From a virus: 25,371 nucleotides of DNA. A program made the position numbers and the translations under genes. Below the pieces are notes generated by a model. It was not told the origin of the DNA. It worked only from the letters and a program-made list of their open reading frames with translations, and made no database searches. Below are positions 12,014 to 25,371 of this stretch, one piece after another. The stretch's first letter is position 1, and every line of letters starts with the position of its first letter. The stretch is from IMG/VR virus record IMGVR_UViG_3300035698_020985, positions 1 through 25,371 of that record. One strand, given 5' to 3'.

Positions 12014-12904
12014 TTATAGTAGTCGATCAGCTAATCTTAGCATAGCTTCAGGAAGTTTACCGGCGTTTTTACTAAAGAACCTGGCAACTTCATGCTGGTC
12101 TGAATCAGTAACCAACGTAGAAAGTAAACTAAAGGCTGCACGAGGCTGCCCTTGTTGCATCTTTCTAGCAGCGTATTTCAAGAGAGCTTGTGTTTTTGCT
12201 TTAGGGTCAGCAGGGTTACCAACTACAGACAACTCCTGGTATTCTACTCCTAAACAATCTTCATAAATAAGCTCACCATCAATCGAAGACATCTTATACC
12301 ACTTCAAGTGATCACACAGTTCTCTATCCGTGTTAGCAATAGGCGAAGTACATTTACTGTAACTGCACTTTACTTGTTCACAAATACATCCCATAGAGAA
12401 CGTATCAACGTCACCACTCAACAGACTTTCTGCTAAAGGAGGATCTTTCGTAGCGTCCATAGCAACTACAGTAAGCACATGCTTATCATCATCCCGTGCT
12501 GTTACATAATGCGCATCAGGAATATAGCCACGCGCAGCCTTCGGGTCGTCTGCAGCATGCTCAATATGGAGTGGATCATTGCGGAAAGTCTGGAAGACTA
12601 AACAACGATGATTATATGAAAACCGTGTAAGCTCGTCATGCCTGAAATTATCACCGTTGTTATTTGGCTCATCAGCAGTGACTGCACGCGGTACAGGAAA
12701 GATATAATCATTGATGTTATCTGATATATTGTAAACTTTAGATACTGCTTTGAGAACATCTTTTGATAAGATATTCAGAGCAGTCTTCACCGCGTCATCT
12801 TCTTGCGGTGTCATGTCATCATTTTGGGCTGCTCTCTTACTAAATTTTCCAGACGATTCATAGACACTAACGATAGGAGTTTGAGCGGTTTTATAAAACG
12901 GCAT
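12014..12904 (-). CDS. Prohead (head maturation) serine protease
   Basis: 296 residues with the pattern of phage prohead proteases of the HK97/herpes assemblin type. Catalytic candidates are the His in NDPLHIEHA (H116, possibly H113) and the Ser in DTFSMGC (S170), followed by the usual closing strand ELSVVGNPADPKA at about 224-236. Between these is a Cys-rich insert (C173, C175, C180, C185, C197 with H199) that may hold a metal; similar Cys-rich inserts are known to me in some large-phage prohead proteases. The enzyme cuts scaffold and capsid precursors during head maturation. Its ribosome site AGGAGAG can be hidden in a hairpin (12908-12952). Next downstream are the scaffold-like and capsid genes, the classic order. 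Confidence 0.82.
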   Translation of the reverse strand: MPFYKTAQTPIVSVYESSGKFSKRAAQNDDMTPQEDDAVKTALNILSKDVLKAVSKVYNISDNINDYIFPVPRAVTADEPNNNGDNFRHDELTRFSYNHRCLVFQTFRNDPLHIEHAADDPKAARGYIPDAHYVTARDDDKHVLTVVAMDATKDPPLAESLLSGDVDTFSMGCICEQVKCSYSKCTSPIANTDRELCDHLKWYKMSSIDGELIYEDCLGVEYQELSVVGNPADPKAKTQALLKYAARKMQQGQPRAAFSLLSTLVTDSDQHEVARFFSKNAGKLPEAMLRLADRLL

Positions 12905-12974: not shown

Positions 12975-13154
12975 TTATTTAACTGTTGATTCTTCTTTAT
13001 CAGAAGGGGGATCTTTGGAGTCAGTCTGTAGATTTGCAGGAACTAACGTCTTCCCACAGCTAGGGCACGCAGTAATATGCCCCTTAATCTCATGACCACA
13101 GCTACATTTAATTTCCTTAATAGGAGCTATTCCTCGTTTACTAAAGCCCATCAT
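12975..13154 (-). CDS. Small zinc-ribbon protein
   Basis: 59 residues. The start is taken as ATG at 13154 (six bases from GGAGG), since a longer frame from 13187 would begin inside the previous gene with no ribosome site and the ATG at 13160 directly abuts GGAGG. The core KCSCGHEIKGHITACPSCGK has C.CG and C..CG knuckles, a zinc-ribbon fold. The rest is Lys/Ser/Pro-rich and probably disordered. It overlaps the end of the Cas4-like nuclease gene by 14 bases. Zinc ribbons of this size often bind nucleic acid or act as adaptor proteins; the exact job is unknown. Confidence 0.72.
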   Translation of the reverse strand: MMGFSKRGIAPIKEIKCSCGHEIKGHITACPSCGKTLVPANLQTDSKDPPSDKEESTVK

Positions 13155-13956
13155 TTTCATCCTCCAAGCAATGCCGCCTGAAATCACAAAAACGGCAATA
13201 TTTATACTTGAAATTTTGCCTGAAATCGCAGCCGTTCTTTAACTCCTGGTCAACTTTCAAGTATTTTTCTTTAGCTTCTTCCATCATTTCATCTGAAATA
13301 TCGTATGTATGAATCCCTTTTTTAGAATCCACATACTTCAGATACAGATACTGCCCTTTGATTTGATCTGCATCTGGTAACGTTTGACGTAACCATATCC
13401 CATATGAAGGAATTTGTACAGAAGACAGCTCAGCCTTTTTACTTGATGGGCTTCCTGATTTGTAATCAACTACTCTGTAGGACCCTTCTTCCAATGAATC
13501 GATTCTATCAGCCTTTAGCCAAACAACAACACCATCGAATGTAATTTTGGCTAGCTTTTCAACTTGAAATACATTTGGAACATCATTCGTTTTCAAGTGT
13601 TTTAGATATTTAGTCATCATCATTTTTATTGAATATAGGTCTTCCTTTGTAATTACACCTTTTTTTATTTTATCGTAGGCTTTGTAAGATGCAACAGCAG
13701 CCTTGAAATGGCGGCCTATTTCTTTCCTATGGTTGTATTTGGGATCGCTCATTTGCTCTTTATGTAGCTCTTCTAACACCTTGTGTGCAATATTCCCGAT
13801 AAGGAAGTACCTGTTTTCGGCAGGTATAAATGGTGGAGCAAGGTATCTGTACACGAAGAGGCGGCGACATCCGTTAAATGTGTCAACTTTTGATGGAGAG
13901 AGTGTTAGAGTAGTTGGGTCTTTGACTACTTTGCGCTTACATGACTTTTTAACCAT
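13141..13956 (-). CDS. Cas4/AddB-like PD-(D/E)XK nuclease with predicted 4Fe-4S cluster
   Basis: 271 residues; ATG seven bases after GAGAGG. All landmarks of the RecB-family nuclease are visible in order: C30 (FNGCRRLF), H58 (GNIAHKVLEEL), D150 (LKADRID), D164 and K166 (RVVDYKSG), then Q181/Y185 (VQIPSYG), and a C-terminal cysteine set C254-x2-C257-x5-C263 which with C30 matches the 4Fe-4S arrangement of Cas4 and AddB. Such proteins act as DNA exonucleases, or trim ends in recombination and spacer acquisition. No cas1, cas2 or array lies nearby, so a phage recombination, host-DNA degradation or end-processing role is more likely. It begins 31 bases inside the metallopeptidase gene's end and overlaps the zinc-ribbon gene, so the set is co-translated. 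Confidence 0.85.
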   Translation of the reverse strand: MVKKSCKRKVVKDPTTLTLSPSKVDTFNGCRRLFVYRYLAPPFIPAENRYFLIGNIAHKVLEELHKEQMSDPKYNHRKEIGRHFKAAVASYKAYDKIKKGVITKEDLYSIKMMMTKYLKHLKTNDVPNVFQVEKLAKITFDGVVVWLKADRIDSLEEGSYRVVDYKSGSPSSKKAELSSVQIPSYGIWLRQTLPDADQIKGQYLYLKYVDSKKGIHTYDISDEMMEEAKEKYLKVDQELKNGCDFRQNFKYKYCRFCDFRRHCLEDENDGL

Positions 13957-14591
13957 AAGAGAACCTCTCGAAATGCAGCATGCGTTTGCGGATACGTTTT
14001 GTATTTTCGAAATAGTGTCTGTACTACACGATCATAATCCCTACACATCCAATAATACTTGCTTGTAGTAAAATATCCTGCTAAATTCTTTGCATCCGTA
14101 CAAGCATTGTACTGCGTACCACCAAAAAAACTGTGCAAAATCATATTCATAGCGTAACCGCTAGTCTCAATACGGGTTCTTCCAGGGGATCCCCACGGGG
14201 CTACACACACCAAGAAAGCTAAAAAGAACAAAAAGTAAAGATTAATGAACGCAAACAGTGACAATAAACTAAACACTGCTAGTATTTGTGGAAAAAGATA
14301 CTTAAACTTATATAGTGATGTGTTTGCTTCATCACACATGTGCACAAACTCATGGGCACACACAACAAGCGCTGAGTGTGGGTTAGACTCAATATAAGGC
14401 TGTGTGGGCACATACACAGTAGTACCGATAGTAGTTATGTACCTAGTCATAAACCCCTTATTAAAGAAAAGGATAAGCCCCAGAAATCGCATAAACATGC
14501 TTTTATCTTTTGCTTTTATTTTCGCATTCGGAAACCGTGCAAGAACAACATTATCCCAAAAAGAATAGAACTGGTATATAGTAACGTTCAT
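13926..14591 (-). CDS. Membrane-anchored HEXXH zinc metallopeptidase
   Basis: 221 residues. The motif HEFVH at 80-84, preceded by hydrophobic LVVCA, is a standard HEXXH zinc site; E142 in RTRIETSGYAM is a plausible third ligand, as in gluzincins (M48-like). Residues about 99-132 form two hydrophobic membrane helices (YLFPQILAVFSLLSLFAF and INLYFLFFLAFLVCV) between the motif and E142. No N-terminal signal peptide is evident. The ATG overlaps the amidase TGA by four bases (ATGA), so the two are co-translated. An envelope or processing protease that aids lysis, or acts on host membrane proteins, is possible. The exact family is not recognised. Confidence 0.75.
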   Translation of the reverse strand: MNVTIYQFYSFWDNVVLARFPNAKIKAKDKSMFMRFLGLILFFNKGFMTRYITTIGTTVYVPTQPYIESNPHSALVVCAHEFVHMCDEANTSLYKFKYLFPQILAVFSLLSLFAFINLYFLFFLAFLVCVAPWGSPGRTRIETSGYAMNMILHSFFGGTQYNACTDAKNLAGYFTTSKYYWMCRDYDRVVQTLFRKYKTYPQTHAAFREVLLWLKSHVSAK

Positions 14592-15106
14592 CCGTAGATA
14601 TCCTTTACATGTTTAGCAATAGATACTTGAAGGTCACTCAATGAAAGATTATCCTTTAGATATTGACGAAATAACATCATTGGAATGTTGGGGCATGTCT
14701 TGGACGTGTGTGGATCCTCATAGTGACCCAGCACATCATTCAGTGTAAGATCAAAATGGGTAGTCAGGTTCTTCAATAGTGCTTTTGCTGTTTCGAGTTG
14801 TTTGTCCGTGAATGCTTTTTTACCAACCAAACAAATTCCAATAGAACTGCTATTTCTACCGGCAACGTGAGCACCAGTTTCACTATCGTCAAATAGCGGG
14901 TCATCATCGAGGTGTCGCCCCGCTTCGATTTGGCCATCCAAAAACTCCCAATAATCAACATCAGCAAAGGGTCTACCATTCAAAATTATGTAATGGTAAC
15001 CAACTGCTGCCCAACCGAGTTTCTTATGCCACTCATCAAAAATCAAAACGCTACCCCAAGGGGTAGCTGAGCAATGCACGAAGATATTTTTCAATCTCCC
15101 AGCCAT
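14588..15106 (-). CDS. T7-lysozyme-like N-acetylmuramoyl-L-alanine amidase (endolysin)
   Basis: 172 residues, complete. The zinc ligands of the amidase_2/PGRP family are in place: H11 (FVHCSAT), H128 (LGHYEDP) and C138, with the catalytic Tyr (GYHY, Y38) and K136 (SKTCP) spaced as in T7 lysozyme (H17, Y46, H122, K128, C130). The enzyme cuts the amide bond between MurNAc and the stem peptide, releasing progeny phage. No signal peptide is present, so it needs a holin or similar for export; a holin candidate lies at the right edge. Its T7 counterpart also inhibits host-type phage RNA polymerase, but no such polymerase is seen here. It follows the portal gene after 10 bases and runs into the metallopeptidase. 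Confidence 0.92.
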   Translation of the reverse strand: MAGRLKNIFVHCSATPWGSVLIFDEWHKKLGWAAVGYHYIILNGRPFADVDYWEFLDGQIEAGRHLDDDPLFDDSETGAHVAGRNSSSIGICLVGKKAFTDKQLETAKALLKNLTTHFDLTLNDVLGHYEDPHTSKTCPNIPMMLFRQYLKDNLSLSDLQVSIAKHVKDIYG

Positions 15107-15116
15107 GCTGAACCTC

Positions 15117-16931
15117 TTACTCCCCAGTTAATAGCCCGGAGCCTGCTAAGGGAACGTCCTGAAGGAGGAGGTCTTCCCGACGATTAATTCCTTCTTCAAA
15201 TTCCAAATCGTCCATTGTCTCTATAACATCACGAACATCTACTTTATTTTCAGTATCAGCTAGATCATCCAATCTGCTTTCTAGCTCGTCTCGGCTACTC
15301 GCCATATAAGGGTTATTGGACCCAAACTTCTTTTGCTGAGAAGCGGGGGGTGGTATAGGGGGCTTCGCACCAGGAGCGCCTGGGGCACCAGGAGCACCCG
15401 GCTTAGCAGGGGCTTGTGGGGGCTGTGGCACTCCATATATTTCCGGGTTCTCTTTCTTGTATTTCCGTTCCTCTGCAATATTCTTTCTTTCAGTATCAGT
15501 ATCTATGCCAGCACCAGACGCGTAAGTGCGCTCAGAAAGAATTCCACGCTCTTTCAAATCACGCCATACATTAAGAATAGCGACATCCTGTGTTGGTTCT
15601 AAGCTCTTGTGCCATTTGAGGCTAGGAACAATCAATTCCCGTTCTTCCATCGGGCGCTGGACGCGAATTCTATGTTCAATCTCACAACGAGGGCGTCTGT
15701 AAAATTCGTGAATCTCAGCAATAGGGGCACAAATCTTTTTTATAATCCAATCATCTTCAAAGCGTAATCTTAGGGAAGACAGGCGCTCCATCAAAGTTTG
15801 TAAACCAGCAACCGCAGCCGCGAAAGATGTTTCACCAACTAGGAATGACTTGGCTACGCCTAACCCAAGTAGCTTCACACGTTCTATGAAATCCCATTCA
15901 CGAGAGATCAGCAGCATTCGATCAGAAACCCCAACCAACTCTGCGGTTACATTATGATGCATAATGATCGCTGCAAGCGGATCAGCTTCTGCCATGCTCA
16001 GCATTTCAGCAAAGGCTACTTCGTCTTCTTCATCAGGCAACCAACCACTGTTTGGATCACCCAATTTGAAAATACGTAATGGAGCGGCATTCCGCTGGGC
16101 AACTGCGAGTGACGCATTCACAATAAAATCTTCGTACATAATTACACGGAATAATCTTGTGTATAAAGATGTTCCACGCACATCTGTAGAAGAATTCAAA
16201 CGAGGCAAATAGGTAGTATTCAAAGCGTCTAGTGGCACTTCTCTGTTCATCCTAAACGCATTTATGATTTCTTTAGGAATAACCTTCTGCAATCTTCGGA
16301 TTCTAGGATCGGTAGTATTGATTAATCTTTTTATTTCCGGTGTAGGTAGCAGGGAAAGCAATGGCTGCTCAATTGCTAGACCTATCCCGTCCACTTTAAC
16401 ATAATCAGGGTTATGCGGGATGACCCGATCCCAAATTCCCTGCGTGGAATTGAATATATTATGGAGTACAAGCTCTCCGGTGATCATGTAATCACGAGTA
16501 AATGACGGAAGTTTCGAAACCAAGTTCAATTTCGTAAACATATCCTCGTACACATGCCGTATATGCTTGTCATCGATCCCCATAAGATCAAATTGGGACC
16601 ACGGCAGTTCTGCGTACATATCTGTTGCGGCAGCGATTGCGGGATCTCTTTTATATACTTCCCGCCAAATAGAGTTAGCTACTACTCTATTTTTGGGGTA
16701 GTAAAATTTATCTGGAGTGGACCATCTATAATCGTAATACAGTGGTGACTGCGCTAAGGATTGGCCCCCACCACCGCCCATGCTACCACCAGCACCCGAC
16801 GCCCCACCCATAGTCTGTGCGGTTCTACGGATAGGCCCGTGCGCTTTAGTATAGATAACGTTTGGACTGTGCACAATTGGTGCAGCGGCCTTTTTGCGAC
16901 TAGATGCTTTCTTTTTTATTTTTTTAGCCAC
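15117..16931 (-). CDS. Portal protein
   Basis: 604 residues, GTG start overlapping the previous stop by one base. The basic N-terminus (KKIKKKASSRKKAAA) and a Gly/Ser-rich linker (about 41-57) precede a body typical of portals: PLYYDYRWSTPDKFYYPKNR, VYKRDPAIAAATDMYAELPW, TRDYMITGELVLHNIFNS, then an alpha-helical crown-like half with RRPRCEIEHRIRVQRP and YKKENPEIYGVP. The C-terminus holds a collagen-like PGAPGAPGAPGA linker and an acidic tail (about 540-600). Twelve copies form the ring through which DNA enters and leaves the head. It is separated from the terminase by several accessory genes, and is followed by the amidase. Assignment is good from overall pattern; the two low-complexity linkers are unusual for the family. 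Confidence 0.82.
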   Translation of the reverse strand: MAKKIKKKASSRKKAAAPIVHSPNVIYTKAHGPIRRTAQTMGGASGAGGSMGGGGGQSLAQSPLYYDYRWSTPDKFYYPKNRVVANSIWREVYKRDPAIAAATDMYAELPWSQFDLMGIDDKHIRHVYEDMFTKLNLVSKLPSFTRDYMITGELVLHNIFNSTQGIWDRVIPHNPDYVKVDGIGLAIEQPLLSLLPTPEIKRLINTTDPRIRRLQKVIPKEIINAFRMNREVPLDALNTTYLPRLNSSTDVRGTSLYTRLFRVIMYEDFIVNASLAVAQRNAAPLRIFKLGDPNSGWLPDEEDEVAFAEMLSMAEADPLAAIIMHHNVTAELVGVSDRMLLISREWDFIERVKLLGLGVAKSFLVGETSFAAAVAGLQTLMERLSSLRLRFEDDWIIKKICAPIAEIHEFYRRPRCEIEHRIRVQRPMEERELIVPSLKWHKSLEPTQDVAILNVWRDLKERGILSERTYASGAGIDTDTERKNIAEERKYKKENPEIYGVPQPPQAPAKPGAPGAPGAPGAKPPIPPPASQQKKFGSNNPYMASSRDELESRLDDLADTENKVDVRDVIETMDDLEFEEGINRREDLLLQDVPLAGSGLLTGE

Positions 16932-17398: not shown

Positions 17399-18547
17399 TT
17401 AGAGAGCTTTTAAAGCTTTCTGAACGGATGCAGTTATTTGCTGTTTATCTGCATTCGCTAAAAATCCTGAAATAGCTTGAATGCTATTGTCCAGGCTAGG
17501 AACCAGTGTAGTTTCCCACATATGCATGAATTCTTTAGTACTTTCCCATGACGCTACAGCCCATTGAACGGCAGCCTTCTTCCATTCACCTTCTTCTTTT
17601 CCAAACTTTGCAAACCGCTGTACATATTCGCTAGCTTTAATATTACGTTGCTTAACTCCGTATAAATGCCCCTCTAGCTTAGCTGTAATATTAGGAAAGG
17701 TGTTGTCTAAAAAGTCAATAATGTTCGTATCTGTAAGTGCCGCGCCTTTTCTAATTTCATCATGAAGTGTAGCAAGCACAGTGCCTAATTGAGTATGAAA
17801 TAGCTCGGTAATTTCGCTGTCTATCTGGCTTTCTCCAGTAAGTGATACCTGTAAATACTGTGCAAAATCACGCTCTTCCTCTGATTTAGGTTTCCACTTA
17901 CCAACCTCTTGTTCCCATTGCCCATGTATCTTAGCCGCTTCTCTCTTTACCTCATCGGAACTCTGCCGAAGACTTGCTATAGTTGATAGCGCAATATCAA
18001 CGGATTCAAGCGCAGGTTCTACCACCTGACTTTCTACAAAAATAGGCTCACGCTGATCAGTAGATAGTTTATAAAGCATGTTAGCTGCTTTACATCTAAG
18101 TACATGTGCTTCCCGTAGTGTGCCAGTAGCTACATGGTCTATTTGATCTTCTAAAACGGCTGTGTTGCCAATACCAGCTAAATCAACAGTAATATGATCC
18201 ACGTACTTTTCTACAAGAATTCCAGTAACACCACTCGCCAACTTTACTTCTTGGCCCATTTTTAAAACCGAAAAGGGGCCTTCATTAAGCACCTTACTTG
18301 CGTACTCCTTTGTTTCTTTGAGTGCATACGTAATGACACTTTTTGGGTAGTCTGAGTCTTCCAGCACAGATTCAATTTCGTCCCATGTCCAACCCATCAT
18401 CCAGTAAGCCTGTGCAGATTGCTTTGCTTCATCTTTAAGATCTACAGCCTCTTGCGCAATGATAATATGGTTATCTTTGCCAGCGCTTACTCGTTGTGCA
18501 AGCCCCCGTACAAAAGAATCACCATCCATTTTGTTAGTCGTTTTCAT
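17399..18547 (-). CDS. Unrecognised helical protein, 382 residues
   Basis: ATG overlaps the stop of the DUF192 gene by one base (TAATG) with GAGG seven bases before. Residues about 30-90 are helical and contain an aromatic AYWMMGWTWDEIE segment. Residues about 96-140 look like a small SH3/KOW-like beta barrel (KMGQEVKLASGVTGILVEKY, then ITVDLAGIGN). The remainder (about 150-382) is long amphipathic helices with Trp-rich patches (HGQWEQEVGKWKPKSEEERD, VQWAVASWESTKEFMHMWET). No catalytic motif is seen. Coupling to the DUF192 protein and proximity to terminase and portal suggest a head-assembly or DNA-packaging accessory role. Not recognised. Confidence 0.62.
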   Translation of the reverse strand: MKTTNKMDGDSFVRGLAQRVSAGKDNHIIIAQEAVDLKDEAKQSAQAYWMMGWTWDEIESVLEDSDYPKSVITYALKETKEYASKVLNEGPFSVLKMGQEVKLASGVTGILVEKYVDHITVDLAGIGNTAVLEDQIDHVATGTLREAHVLRCKAANMLYKLSTDQREPIFVESQVVEPALESVDIALSTIASLRQSSDEVKREAAKIHGQWEQEVGKWKPKSEEERDFAQYLQVSLTGESQIDSEITELFHTQLGTVLATLHDEIRKGAALTDTNIIDFLDNTFPNITAKLEGHLYGVKQRNIKASEYVQRFAKFGKEEGEWKKAAVQWAVASWESTKEFMHMWETTLVPSLDNSIQAISGFLANADKQQITASVQKALKAL

Positions 18548-20217
18548 TAGAATTCCTCTTCTTCTTCTGAAGAATTTTCACTAATTATTTCTCTGATTAC
18601 CGGAAGCCAAGATTCCGCGATGCTCATGTCTTTTGATGCTGAAGACTGCTCTTCTTCATATTCTTCTGATTCCTGTAAACCCATTGGACTATCACCAGGA
18701 GCTAATTGCCCATGTGGGTATCCTGGCATATATTTTCCGTTATCGATATCTTCAAGCAAACGTTCTATTGCTTCCAGTTCATCCAAAGAAATGTTATCTT
18801 TACTCTCTCTACTCTGGACTGCATAAATTGGGTCACCTTGACCACCATGGTATTCACTTAGCAGTTTGAACAACTCAAATATATCATGCTCTCCAGCGTA
18901 ATCTGGGAGACTTAGATCATACTCAGCGGGCAGTGGAGCTTCTACACCGCCCAGTTGTGCGTCAATTCGCGTATTGATCTTACAAATAGACCCTACTTTG
19001 ATGTCGGCTTTTTTACACATCCCACCAGCTATTTCGAGCACCGCGCTCGTTTTTGGGTAGGACCACCACTCATGCGCGCCAGGTTCAATATTCGCAACCA
19101 CCTTCCCTACCTCAAGGCCGTTTGGGGATTCCAGCAAAAATACGATATCAATAGGGAAAGCCACTGATCCCATATGGAAGGTAACACTGCCTTCCTCTTC
19201 AAATGGGAAAAATAATCCTTCGGCAGTGTCTAGTGCGTCAAACACTTCTAACCCGGCTGCTTTCTGAAGAGGCGTTTCTGCAACATACGATAAAAACTTT
19301 GCACCATTCTCAAATTTAATATTTAGCTTTTCTTTATCAGAGTAACCGATTCGGGCAACCGTTGTAGCGATTTTCGCTGTCTTTACTTTCCTCGGCTTTT
19401 TAGAAGCTGTCTCTAATCCAGATGGGCCTGACTCAAACTCGATCTCCCGCGTACCAGAAGGCATAGCCTCTACAGGAGACTCTTCAAGTGTAGGATCAAC
19501 CTTTTCAAATCCACTTTGAATGCCTTTGTACAACTCAGTAAATATATCAGCAAGAATAGTGGGATCGAAAATCTTAGCAATAGCGTTCGTTATACGTTGG
19601 TTAATTGGAAGGGATGCAGAAGGATCAATCTTCAAAAACTCATTCTGCAAATCAGTGTTATTGATGAGTGCATCTTCTGGAATCTGATTGCCATAGGCAT
19701 CGATAAGCTGCATGACTGAGCGCTGTGCTTGCTCATAGTTGTTAAAGTCTTGTGCAGTAAGACCAACAGAGGCGAGCAGCGCTACGAATTCATTACCACT
19801 ATCCAGAGATGCTTTCCACCGTTTCCAAGCAGGAAAGAACTCATCTTCAAATTCCTGCATATCTTCGATAGTTTTGTTTAGATGAAAAGAAGCGGTTTCC
19901 TGCACGGGTGTCACCTGTGTCTTCTTAGACTTTTGAAATTTATCTGTATTCTTATGTGTCCGATGCTTCGTATCTTTCACATCATTCACATTTGGGTTCT
20001 TTATCCGTTGTATTACTTCTTGCTGGTATTGCTGCCCAACACCTTTTACTAGTTTATACTCTTTTTCGATAAGCCAATCAGACAACTCATTTAATACAGA
20101 ATCGTCAGTGACACCATGACAAGCAGTGTGATAATCATTCTCACTGATATACCCTTGGGAACTTGCCAAGAATGCAAAATGAGATTTAAGTGTAGCTAAA
20201 TGTGCCATAGTAACCAC
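18547..20217 (-). CDS. Large virion-region protein with DUF192 domain
   Basis: About 556 residues. Residues about 308-415 match the DUF192 fold: FLSYVAETPLQKAAGLEVFD, then GLFFPFEEEGSVTFHMGS, FPIDIVFLLE (D357 corresponds to the conserved LD.(I/L)F site), and VLEIAGGMCKKADIKVGSIC. DUF192 is widespread in bacteria, often as a small secreted or chaperone-like protein; its biochemical role is unclear. The flanks are unusual: a helical N-terminus (about 5-55), a basic stretch (about 73-100), helical residues 110-245, and an acidic C-terminal tail ending in EENSSEEEEEF-like residues. Start may be GTG at 20217 or ATG at 20208 (GGTGG five bases before); both are in frame. It is coupled to the next gene by TAATG overlap. 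Function unknown. Confidence 0.7.
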   Translation of the reverse strand: MVTMAHLATLKSHFAFLASSQGYISENDYHTACHGVTDDSVLNELSDWLIEKEYKLVKGVGQQYQQEVIQRIKNPNVNDVKDTKHRTHKNTDKFQKSKKTQVTPVQETASFHLNKTIEDMQEFEDEFFPAWKRWKASLDSGNEFVALLASVGLTAQDFNNYEQAQRSVMQLIDAYGNQIPEDALINNTDLQNEFLKIDPSASLPINQRITNAIAKIFDPTILADIFTELYKGIQSGFEKVDPTLEESPVEAMPSGTREIEFESGPSGLETASKKPRKVKTAKIATTVARIGYSDKEKLNIKFENGAKFLSYVAETPLQKAAGLEVFDALDTAEGLFFPFEEEGSVTFHMGSVAFPIDIVFLLESPNGLEVGKVVANIEPGAHEWWSYPKTSAVLEIAGGMCKKADIKVGSICKINTRIDAQLGGVEAPLPAEYDLSLPDYAGEHDIFELFKLLSEYHGGQGDPIYAVQSRESKDNISLDELEAIERLLEDIDNGKYMPGYPHGQLAPGDSPMGLQESEEYEEEQSSASKDMSIAESWLPVIREIISENSSEEEEEF

Positions 20218-22865: not shown

Positions 22866-23418
22866 CTTTTTCTTTCAGTTTATCTTCAATCGGATAGCGT
22901 GGCTCATACGCATAGGACTGCTTTTCTACGTAAGACATTTTTCCTATTTTAAAAGTGCGAATACCGCCACTTTCTAAATCATAAGCAAATAAAATTGTTT
23001 CTCCATTTTTAGTTGTAATTTTGTATGGCTCTGCATTCCGAGAAGATTTGTTATTGTCAGAAGCTACATAATCAAAACTAAGAACCGAGGTTTCCTTCAT
23101 AGATTTTCGAATTACTGCTAAGGTAGAATGCATCGATTCCTTTTCTAAAGGCTTTTGTCTTGGAGATTCTGGTTGATCAGACGCTCGATCCCTAAGCGTA
23201 ATCATTGAAAGTTTTTTAACTGGTTCTTTTTTAGACGTGGTGGTTTCCGGTAACTTAGTGAACGTGCTTATTGATCCGCACTTTCGGCACGTAAATGTAG
23301 TTCTGTCTTTTTCTGGCTCAGTTAATTCAAGTTTATTGGACTTACAGCTAGGGCATACTTTACCTACCTTAGCTAACGCTTGGCGGTTTTTAGATCTTTT
23401 ATGGTAGATATAGGTCAC
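22858..23418 (-). CDS. Zinc-ribbon plus WYL-domain protein
   Basis: 186 residues, GTG start with AGGTGAG five bases before. Residues 20-50 are a C4 zinc ribbon (C22/C25 in VCPSCKSNK; C44/C47 in FTCRKCGS). A disordered linker (about 55-95) leads to a C-terminal domain (96-175) with the WYL pattern: VIRKSMKETSVLSFDYVA, EPYKITTKNGETILFAYDLE, GGIRTFKIGKMSYVE. WYL domains sense nucleic acid or small ligands and are common in transcription and defence regulators. The GTGA overlap with the RmlA-like gene and the eight-base overlap with terL tie all three together. A regulator of late genes, packaging, or host DNA-damage response is possible; the target is unknown. Confidence 0.8.
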   Translation of the reverse strand: MTYIYHKRSKNRQALAKVGKVCPSCKSNKLELTEPEKDRTTFTCRKCGSISTFTKLPETTTSKKEPVKKLSMITLRDRASDQPESPRQKPLEKESMHSTLAVIRKSMKETSVLSFDYVASDNNKSSRNAEPYKITTKNGETILFAYDLESGGIRTFKIGKMSYVEKQSYAYEPRYPIEDKLKEKDE

Positions 23419-24167
23419 TTAGTCTCACCTGACATCATTTGATTTGCAAACCATAAACTTGAATGTGTGCCAGCATCTGTCCAGCCCTTTTCCATAGTCG
23501 AATATTGCAGTTCACCCCATTCCAAATATTTGTTATTTACATCAGTAATTTCAAGTTCACCTCTACCAGAAGGCTGTAGAGAATCAATTATATCAAAAAC
23601 TTTTTGATCATAAAAATAAACTCCAGTAACAGCAAAATAACCTGTGTACTCGTTATTGTCATGTAACCTATTCAGTTCCGCTGCATCTGGTTTTTCAACG
23701 ATCTCTCTAATTCTCTTATCGTTGTCGGTTACAGCTATTCCAAATCTGTCCAAATTAGAAACAAGTTTCAAAATTATTCTGGCACCACGTTCCTGTTTAT
23801 TAAATTCATTAGCCCAAAGAGTCAAATCATCTTCAAATATATTATCTCCGAGAATAACACACATGCGCTCACCATAGCAAAACCCACGAGCCAAGCCTAG
23901 CGCTTGTGCAATGCCCCCCGCATCATCTTGGACCTTATAGGTGAATGTACAGCCAAAGTCCTTCCCAGAGCCCAGCGTTTGGACGATAGACCCCATATGA
24001 TCGGTGCCGGTTACAATAAGAATGTCTGTGATTCCTGCCGCTACCAGTTTCTCGATAGGGTAGAAAATCATAGGCTTTTGGCCCACAGGTAATAAATGCT
24101 TGTTCGTGCAGGTAGTTAAGGGAAGTAGCCTAGTGCCATTGCCCCCTGCCAGCAGAATACCTTTCAC
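23415..24167 (-). CDS. Glucose-1-phosphate thymidylyltransferase-like sugar nucleotidyltransferase
   Basis: 250 residues from the preferred GTG at 24167, six bases after GAGG; this gives KGILLAGGNGTRL, the normal start of RmlA-type enzymes. An in-frame upstream GTG/TTG-started extension to 24239 reads through the previous stop region and is rejected, and the ATG at 24173 abuts its ribosome site. Motifs: LAGGNGTRL (6-14), K23 in TNKHLLPV, LGDNIF (D108), VEKP (158-160), RGELEITDVN (202-211) and WTDAGTHSSL (D231). The family joins a nucleoside triphosphate to glucose-1-phosphate, the first step to dTDP-rhamnose and related sugars. No rmlB, C or D is present here, so it would feed a host pathway or glycosylate a virion or host part. 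Slightly short of the usual 290 residues. Confidence 0.88.
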   Translation of the reverse strand: MKGILLAGGNGTRLLPLTTCTNKHLLPVGQKPMIFYPIEKLVAAGITDILIVTGTDHMGSIVQTLGSGKDFGCTFTYKVQDDAGGIAQALGLARGFCYGERMCVILGDNIFEDDLTLWANEFNKQERGARIILKLVSNLDRFGIAVTDNDKRIREIVEKPDAAELNRLHDNNEYTGYFAVTGVYFYDQKVFDIIDSLQPSGRGELEITDVNNKYLEWGELQYSTMEKGWTDAGTHSSLWFANQMMSGETK

Positions 24168-24176
24168 TTGCATCCT

Positions 24177-24188
24177 CTTTTCGTTTCG
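24177..24188 (-). promoter_or_regulatory. CGAAACGAAAAG leader element, copy 3
   Basis: Identical to the copies at 5851-5862 and 7558-7569, lying directly after the stop of the signal-peptide protein and 9 bases before the GTG at 24167. Confidence 0.5.
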
Positions 24189-24189
24189 A

Positions 24190-24609
24190 TCACTTAACCA
24201 AATATACAACCGTGACTGTTGCGGCTGTTCCCAGCACAAGGCCAGCGGAAAACCACATATATTGATTATTATACCAGGCGTCCTGGTTAGTTATTTCTTT
24301 TTGTAATCTGACATTCTCTGTAATTAGAAATTGCTTTGTTTCCAAAAGAGTAAAATTTGCTGACGTTAGTGTAGCGATTTCTGCGTCTTTGATCTTCACA
24401 AGATCTTTGAATTTAGTTATCTCTAGTGTTAATTTAGGAAGATCTATTCGGTATTGCAGTAATGTTTGTGCATCCGCAGGAAGGAATCCTACATATTCTT
24501 TTCCGTCTATCTTACAGTTTTGAATATCGAGGACAGGGGGATCATCTGCCAATGCAGTACAAGGAAAAATGCAGGTGAAAATCAAAATGAAAAGTAACGC
24601 CTTGCGCAT
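24190..24609 (-). CDS. Signal peptide, coiled coil and C-terminal TM protein (spanin-like)
   Basis: 139 residues, ATG behind CAGGT. The first 22 residues are a signal peptide (MRKALLFILIFTCIFPCTAL, cut likely after ALA before DDPP); the Cys in it does not match a standard lipobox. Residues about 50-105 are a charged, heptad-like coiled coil (RIDLPKLTLEITKFKDLVKI, ENVRLQKEITNQ) and the last 25 are a TM segment (WFSAGLVLGTAATVTVVYLV) ending in Lys. An N-terminal export signal, periplasmic coiled coil and C-terminal TM is the topology of a unimolecular (T1 gp11-like) spanin, which fuses inner and outer membranes at lysis; that needs a lipid anchor, which is unclear. It is preceded by a second TM plus coiled-coil protein one base upstream, so the two may work as a pair. 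Confidence 0.6.
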   Translation of the reverse strand: MRKALLFILIFTCIFPCTALADDPPVLDIQNCKIDGKEYVGFLPADAQTLLQYRIDLPKLTLEITKFKDLVKIKDAEIATLTSANFTLLETKQFLITENVRLQKEITNQDAWYNNQYMWFSAGLVLGTAATVTVVYLVK

Positions 24610-24610
24610 A

Positions 24611-24958
24611 TTACCTGATTCCTATTTCTTTGAACTTAGCAATAATTTCATCTGCGGTCATATCTGGTTTCAGTTTAGTTTCTAAAGACTTTTCTATTTC
24701 GTAGATATCTGAAGAAATCTCTTTGTCCTTCTTTTGCAGTTCCCGCAATTCTGCCATATCTGTATCGTATTTTATTTCCAGACGTTCGATCTGTAACCGT
24801 GCACGCAGAATGGCAATTTGGTTTTCAAGCGCACGAATTTTCTTATTCTTCCTGCCCCACCAAAACACCAGAACAGAAAGAATCACAATAACTAAAACGA
24901 GCAAGAAAATCTTAAAGTTATTGCTAATCCACTTCAATATTTGTTTGATCGTAGCCAC
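24611..24958 (-). CDS. N-terminal TM plus coiled-coil protein (i-spanin-like)
   Basis: 115 residues, GTG start one base after the previous stop. A single N-terminal TM helix (about 14-34: NFKIFLLVLVIVILSVLVFW) is followed by a basic stretch RKNKKIRALENQ and a long coiled coil (about 40-95) with leucines and acidic residues. This is the topology of Rz-type inner-membrane spanins and also of many unrelated membrane-anchored coiled coils. It lies between a holin-like protein and the signal-peptide protein, in an arrangement that suits a lysis cassette. No family signature beyond topology is visible. Confidence 0.6.
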   Translation of the reverse strand: MATIKQILKWISNNFKIFLLVLVIVILSVLVFWWGRKNKKIRALENQIAILRARLQIERLEIKYDTDMAELRELQKKDKEISSDIYEIEKSLETKLKPDMTADEIIAKFKEIGIR

Positions 24959-24959
24959 G

Positions 24960-25371
24960 TTACTTCTTCTTAGCAGGTTTCTCTATGGCTGCAGGTTTCT
25001 CTGGTACTACGGGTGTACTGCCATTCTTTCGTGCGATCACCGCAGGAATAGCTATTACTGTGTTTGCCGCTAAGTAAATAATTAGGCACCACTGCATCCA
25101 ACTAACCCAAACGGCAGAAGTTAGAAACGTAACTTCACCCTTTGGAATAAACAATGCTACAGAGATGTTTGCAATAAACAACAGTGCCAAAAACATTTTC
25201 CTGCCACCGAAGAAATTGAAAAACTTATTCGAACCATTCGTTACTTTAGCACCGTTGCGCTGCATAGCGTCTGGAATGGCCTTTATGGCGTTCGCTCCCA
25301 AATAGATAGCTAAGACCCATTCGAGTGCCTGTACCCAGTCAGCGTCTGCAAATAAGCCAGAATAAAAAGCA
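24960..25371 (-). CDS. Holin-like multi-span membrane protein with duplicated TM segment, 5' end outside window
   Basis: The frame is open from the right edge (codon boundary at 25370) to the stop, giving 136 visible residues, so the start lies outside the window; an internal TTG at 25301 is not the true start. Three hydrophobic segments are visible. The first (WVQALEWVLAIYLGANAIKA) and third (WVSWMQWCLIIYLAANTVIA) are similar, sharing WV....W.L.IYL.AN...AIP, which is a clear internal duplication; the second is MFLALLFIANISVALFIP. The C-terminus is Lys/Pro-rich (IEKPAKKK), as in many holins. Together with the two spanin-like proteins immediately downstream this suggests a lysis or membrane-targeting cassette. 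Holin function is inferred, not proved. Confidence 0.6.
   Translation of the reverse strand, partial: AFYSGLFADADWVQALEWVLAIYLGANAIKAIPDAMQRNGAKVTNGSNKFFNFFGGRKMFLALLFIANISVALFIPKGEVTFLTSAVWVSWMQWCLIIYLAANTVIAIPAVIARKNGSTPVVPEKPAAIEKPAKKK

Follow-up and report, generated by a model that had tools for sequence, protein, structure and literature searches.

This locus raises the question of why a phage should place an amidase, a membrane protein with an HEXXH motif, a nuclease and a zinc ribbon between two of its head genes, and of what the membrane protein does there. The window, i.e. the whole stretch of DNA analysed here, is a virus record of the IMG/VR type with a length of 25,371 bases. It is that of a tailed phage whose tail is contractile, as seen from a match to tail sheath proteins (1.7e-77); its predicted head and tail genes all lie on the minus strand. 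Between portal and head protease we found four overlapping open reading frames on this strand, at the positions given for them in the initial annotation:

15117-16931, minus strand: portal protein, upstream flank of the run (PHROG 16240, 1.8e-81)
14588-15106, minus strand: T7-lysozyme-type N-acetylmuramoyl-L-alanine amidase (Amidase_2), 172 amino acids (Pfam 8.1e-14; PHROG 822, 4.5e-28)
13926-14591, minus strand: HEXXH membrane-hairpin protein, 221 amino acids, from an unnamed viral family of putative zinc metallopeptidases (no Pfam match)
13141-13956, minus strand: PD-(D/E)XK nuclease of the RecB/AddB/Cas4 type, 271 amino acids (PDDEXK_1, 1.6e-26; PHROG 69 exonuclease, 1.5e-19)
12975-13154, minus strand: small zinc-ribbon protein (CxCG...CxxC), 59 amino acids, with GGAGG 6 nt upstream of the ATG at 13154
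12014-12904, minus strand: head maturation protease, downstream flank of the run (PHROG 18299, 5.6e-37)

The identities originally assigned to the four genes (amidase, HEXXH membrane protein, Cas4-like nuclease and zinc ribbon) were correct, and the reported overlaps were confirmed as well: the amidase and HEXXH genes share the 4 nt ATGA, the HEXXH and nuclease genes 31 nt, and the nuclease and zinc-ribbon genes 14 nt, if the ATG at 13154 is taken as the start of the zinc-ribbon gene. Its longest open reading frame spans 13187-12975, with homologues pointing to a start at 13151 or 13154. The 4-nt overlap of amidase and HEXXH genes recurs in five relatives (L009, L011, L012, L013 and L021), and an overlap of 25 nt between HEXXH and nuclease genes is seen in seven. 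From the overlaps the run had been described as a single translational unit; the overlaps hold, but they alone are no proof of such a unit because every one of the four genes is preceded by a Shine-Dalgarno-like sequence of its own. The count of promoter-like sites in the run region was not above chance, and that of terminator-like sites (7 versus 4.0 ± 2.2 expected) not clearly so.

Viral contigs were scanned with the portal and the protease, which yielded about 17 relatives. Amidase, HEXXH, nuclease, zinc ribbon and protease follow one another in this order in the window and in L009, L010, L011, L012, L013, L018, L019, L021, L104 and L105; the order is thus common to about ten related contigs of viral origin and is not a product of chance. 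Other relatives deviate from it. L014 and L015 keep the order of the run without the amidase. L016 and L022 possess the amidase, and the HEXXH gene is replaced by one for a protein of 400 amino acids with a calcineurin-type phosphoesterase domain (Metallophos, 3.1e-9):

L016:12449-13651 and L022:12449-13651: phosphoesterase-domain protein in the HEXXH slot

No HEXXH homologue was found elsewhere on these two contigs. L017 has different genes between portal and nuclease, and L108 lacks amidase, HEXXH and nuclease genes between portal and protease, where it encodes only the zinc ribbon and, beside it, a protein of 87 amino acids (L108:1812-2075), the smallest version of this slot. Since gene content differs among L014-L017, L022 and L108, the stretch from portal to zinc ribbon is a variable slot, of which nuclease and zinc ribbon form the most stable part. 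The portal gene itself is interrupted in frame by intein-like inserts in two relatives, at nearly the same site: a short one in L021 (11062-11654) and a longer one in L020 (11050-12224).

These observations are best explained if the window belongs to one uncultured myovirus lineage, in which the four-gene run is a conserved late-gene cluster. More distant homologues of portal, protease and capsid occur in Virus Rctr197k and Bacillus phage G (35% and 31% portal identity, respectively), but the HEXXH protein is in neither record, nor did we find in them a convincing nuclease or amidase homologue of the window type beside the portal. Between terminase and portal, the window encodes a protein of 556 amino acids (18547-20217) with a DUF192 domain (2.4e-14); this part is retained across relatives while the remainder diverges, and it has further matches in Virus Rctr197k and near the HEXXH gene in L003. 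Adjoining the terminase is a gene (23415-24239) that we take, by its sequence, to encode a glucose-1-phosphate thymidylyltransferase-like protein and that is kept in L014, L016, L018 and L021.

The amidase, nuclease and zinc ribbon of the run have complete sets of active-site residues and are ordinary members of known families. In the nuclease, D150-R-x-D153, D164-Y-K166 and Q181xxxY185 are invariant among 14 nucleases, as are C30, C254, C257 and C263, a four-cysteine Fe-S set as in RecB/AddB/Cas4. The protein hence resembles the Fe-S PD-(D/E)XK nucleases Cas4, AddB and RecB in its D..D-YK and QxxxY motifs and its four cysteines, but differs from them in sitting in a head module. Against the Cas_Cas4 profile it scores 20.1 bits, below the cut-off of 22.7 bits, and PDDEXK_1 matches better. 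Among the genes of the window that could be named, none stood out as a cas gene. Cas4-like genes have been reported earlier from huge phages (PMC7162821). The four cysteines of the zinc ribbon are invariant in 13 sequences. Nuclease and zinc ribbon co-occur in all relatives in which both positions could be read, except for L108 with its zinc ribbon alone, and the shared DNA-processing role proposed for them is plausible.

The amidase belongs to the same fold family as the T7 lysozyme-type amidases (Amidase_2) and has their full catalytic residue set: H11, H128, K136 and C138 (the zinc ligands H, H and C plus K) are invariant in nine relatives, and the protein is probably an endolysin. Nothing notable distinguishes the window amidase from this group, whereas that of the relative L010 carries an intein: its gene (L010:3579-5135) is split in frame by an intein-like insert with C as the first residue and HN as the last before S, and with a LAGLIDADG_3 match (6.6e-9). 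A related contig of 94 kb has a single Amidase_2 match. No holin or spanin gene is found within the four-gene run. Three small membrane-protein genes at 24190-25301, upstream of the terminase and conserved in relatives, make up a probable separate lysis cassette, the middle one being spanin-like:

24611-24958, minus strand: spanin-like protein with an N-terminal transmembrane segment and a coiled coil (weak PHROG matches to Rz-like spanins, best 0.0028)

The HEXXH protein is the unusual member of the run. Successive scans based on the window protein retrieved overlapping sets of relatives, in 8, more than 80 and finally 102 viral contigs; several of these contigs are 200-459 kb long. The motif was present in 80 of 80 loci in which the gene was read. 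An alignment of 74 members has nine invariant columns, among them H80, E81, H84, R138 and E142, and the HEXXH residues, whose conservation had been named as decisive for the initial annotation, are therefore invariant in the homologues. The main elements of the protein are the following:

14340-14354, minus strand: HEFVH motif, residues 80-84, with H80 and H84 as proposed zinc ligands and E81 as proposed catalytic residue (invariant in 74 of 74)
14202-14312, minus strand: uncharged membrane hairpin, residues 94-130 (helices 94-115 and 118-130 in the model, joined by a very short loop)
14166-14168, minus strand: E142, proposed third zinc ligand, in the helix that follows the hairpin (the same in all 74 sequences; R138 lies four residues earlier)

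The downstream glutamate motif of the family reads R138xxxE142xxxY146, and the combination of HEXXH with such a glutamate, as in gluzincins, can be read from all 74 sequences. Searches by tblastn with three different members detected no relatives in cultured phages, and neither did two pattern scans that covered the genomes of 84,980 cellular species; the latter could miss distant relatives because they require short conserved peptides. PHROG 13834, a group of no known function, weakly matches the window protein (7.8e-5) and 5 of the 74 members. Within the sensitivity of the scans used, this is a virus-specific family without a Pfam model, and our literature search found no published work on a phage-encoded HEXXH inner-membrane protease.

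An AlphaFold2 model of the protein (pLDDT 90.9) starts with a helix and some short strands; next come the active-site helix (71-90) bearing HEXXH, the membrane hairpin and the E142 helix. A second model, from another branch of the family, agrees in layout. Across the 74 sequences, residues 101-132 contain on average 0.28 charged residues, and lysines and arginines average 2.6 before the hairpin, 0.08 in its loop and 2.4 after it. Since the ends of the hairpin, but not its loop, are rich in K and R, these charges suggest by the positive-inside rule that the active site faces the cytosol and not the periplasm.

Among known peptidases, HtpX/Ste24 (Peptidase_M48) shares with the window protein the succession of HEXXH, two membrane helices and a glutamate. 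The active site of HtpX faces the cytosol, as predicted for the viral protein. The latter differs in that ExxAD is absent, with R138-E142-Y146 instead, and in that its hairpin is very short. Assignment to M48 failed: Pfam M48 stays below significance, with 3 of 74 members matching (best E 0.046) and no M48 profile match in the window, and when the family profile is compared with that of E. coli HtpX, the HEXXH stretch alone is aligned (probability 15%). The minigluzincins (proabylysin, selecase/MJ1213) are likewise small, single-domain HEXXH proteins, and MJ1213 provides the best PDB sequence link of the family profile, although below significance (E 0.033, positions 52-108). Minigluzincins are soluble and have no membrane hairpin, in which the viral family differs from them; none was listed among the Foldseek matches of the model. 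Alteromonas phage PT11-V22, a candidate relative from BFVD (probability 0.44), was dismissed after the first 50 kb of its genome gave no profile match.

Could the protein have kept its zinc site and yet be no peptidase at all, serving instead as a scaffold or membrane protein that depends on zinc? Neither PDB nor BFVD yielded a strong fold match. All PDB matches are weak (Z at most 3.9), with the zinc peptidases 4l7a (3.9), FtsH (3.6) and ERAP1 (3.2) among unrelated entries, the second model had no meaningful match, and no sequence family reaches its cut-off, findings that would fit such a protein. However, the catalytic residue E81 shows the same full conservation as the ligands, and there are sub-threshold links to several zinc peptidase families besides that to MJ1213. 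We therefore consider a non-peptidase decidedly unlikely and favour the reading as a putative peptidase.

The HEXXH gene of the window has a history of its own. Between the window and L011, identity is 92% for the portal, 84% for the amidase, 50% for the HEXXH protein, 85% for the nuclease and 92% for the protease; in general, the window HEXXH protein is about 50% identical to its relatives, compared with 75-92% for the flanking genes. At the nucleotide level, identity is about 0.8, drops to about 0.55 across 14650-13900 and then recovers. In the tree of HEXXH proteins, L009, L010, L011, L012 and L031 group together with the window outside (support 100/98), whereas in the tree of the flanking genes the window pairs with L011 (89/93) inside the group (100/99). 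A grouping of window, L009 and L011 was rejected for the HEXXH tree (AU p 0.007). All this strongly suggests, at the level of sequence comparison, that the gene was replaced by another allele; replacement is suggested and not proven because for the flanks a position of the window outside L009-L012 was not quite rejected (AU p 0.094). Fast evolution on the window's own branch, without any replacement, would be in line with an HEXXH tree that holds the window together with all five relatives, which was not rejected (p 0.337). Yet the drop in identity starts and stops at the HEXXH gene, the proteins of L009 and L011 are 87% identical, and dN/dS between relatives is about 0.05-0.1, as in the neighbouring genes, which argues against a general acceleration. 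Together with the rejected grouping, this renders fast evolution quite unlikely.

As to the function of this exchangeable gene, the initial annotation had proposed that the membrane protease could activate lysis or strip envelope proteins; as the amidase's partner in lysis, it would degrade or activate some membrane protein, be it a holin, a spanin or one of the host envelope, at the end of infection. The 4-nt overlap with the amidase gene in the window and the five relatives named above, the late-gene position and the retention of the gene in most lineage relatives read, as expected of a functional partner, speak for this, as do an amidase near the HEXXH relative in L092 (2 kb) and L065 (5-6 kb) and an endolysin 4.5 kb from it in L001. 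On the other hand, each gene occurs without the other: L014 and L015 have HEXXH without an amidase in the slot, with no Amidase_2 anywhere on the 91-kb contig of L014, and L016 and L022 have the reverse. Outside the lineage, the neighbours of the HEXXH gene are those of replication and nucleotide metabolism, such as DNA polymerase III alpha, dUTPase, IMP dehydrogenase (IMPDH), adenylosuccinate synthetase (PurA), Thy1, DHFR, ribonucleotide reductase, DNA methylases and an RNase-T-type exonuclease. Only 1 of 100 neighbour clusters scanned had a Pfam amidase match. On the longer contigs we located amidases and, in 33 contigs, the lysozyme, M15, SLT and PG-binding families. Of the 12 hydrolase-bearing contigs outside the lineage, 3 had a hydrolase no more than 6 kb from HEXXH versus 1.25 expected, which is not above chance (P 0.12). 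Because of these neighbours and the non-significant proximity to hydrolases, the coupling of HEXXH and amidase is a feature of one lineage. As the active site is moreover predicted to be cytosolic and the spanin-like gene lies apart, upstream of the terminase, we regard the proposed role in lysis as rather unlikely. In the large-phage branch, a GIDA/Pyr_redox-like protein of 374-435 amino acids is encoded downstream of the HEXXH gene (L071:8708-9919 and 18 other loci).

The position among head genes (portal and head protease) in the window lineage could also point to virion morphogenesis or DNA ejection, the peptidase trimming, for example, a membrane-associated head-assembly factor. We hold this to be very unlikely: as far as neighbours can be named, the other members of the family are encoded outside head modules, and L016, L017 and L108 share the head genes with no HEXXH gene beside the portal.

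Our own reading, tentative and held with somewhat less than even confidence, is that the run combines a probable endolysin, an exchangeable, cytosol-facing HEXXH...E peptidase and a nuclease/zinc-ribbon pair, with host takeover, defence evasion or exclusion favoured over lysis as the role of the peptidase. The preference is based on its gene-by-gene swapping, its loss or replacement in relatives and its replication and nucleotide-metabolism neighbours in other large phages. According to this proposal, the protein would insert its predicted helical hairpin into the host inner membrane, bind zinc via the candidate ligands H80, H84 and E142, and cut membrane or membrane-proximal proteins from the cytosolic side, its gene being an accessory one with a role in takeover, evasion or exclusion. 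Protease activity, zinc binding, cytosolic topology and the accessory role are what we infer here; the exchangeability of the gene does not identify the target.

To our knowledge, little has been described of phage-encoded, membrane-anchored peptidases. The occurrence of the family in more than 100 viral contigs, many of them 100-450 kb long, and the perfect conservation of its active site point to a shared, so far unrecognised infection step in large phages. It is conceivable, albeit doubtful in this specific form, that virus-only membrane-hairpin zinc peptidases have spread through large phages as a means of disarming, from the cytosolic side, rival phages or host defences bound to the membrane, and are swapped gene by gene between phages as hosts change. 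If the HEXXH protein does cut host membrane proteins, it would offer a direct way of studying the remodelling or disarming of the inner membrane by these large phages.
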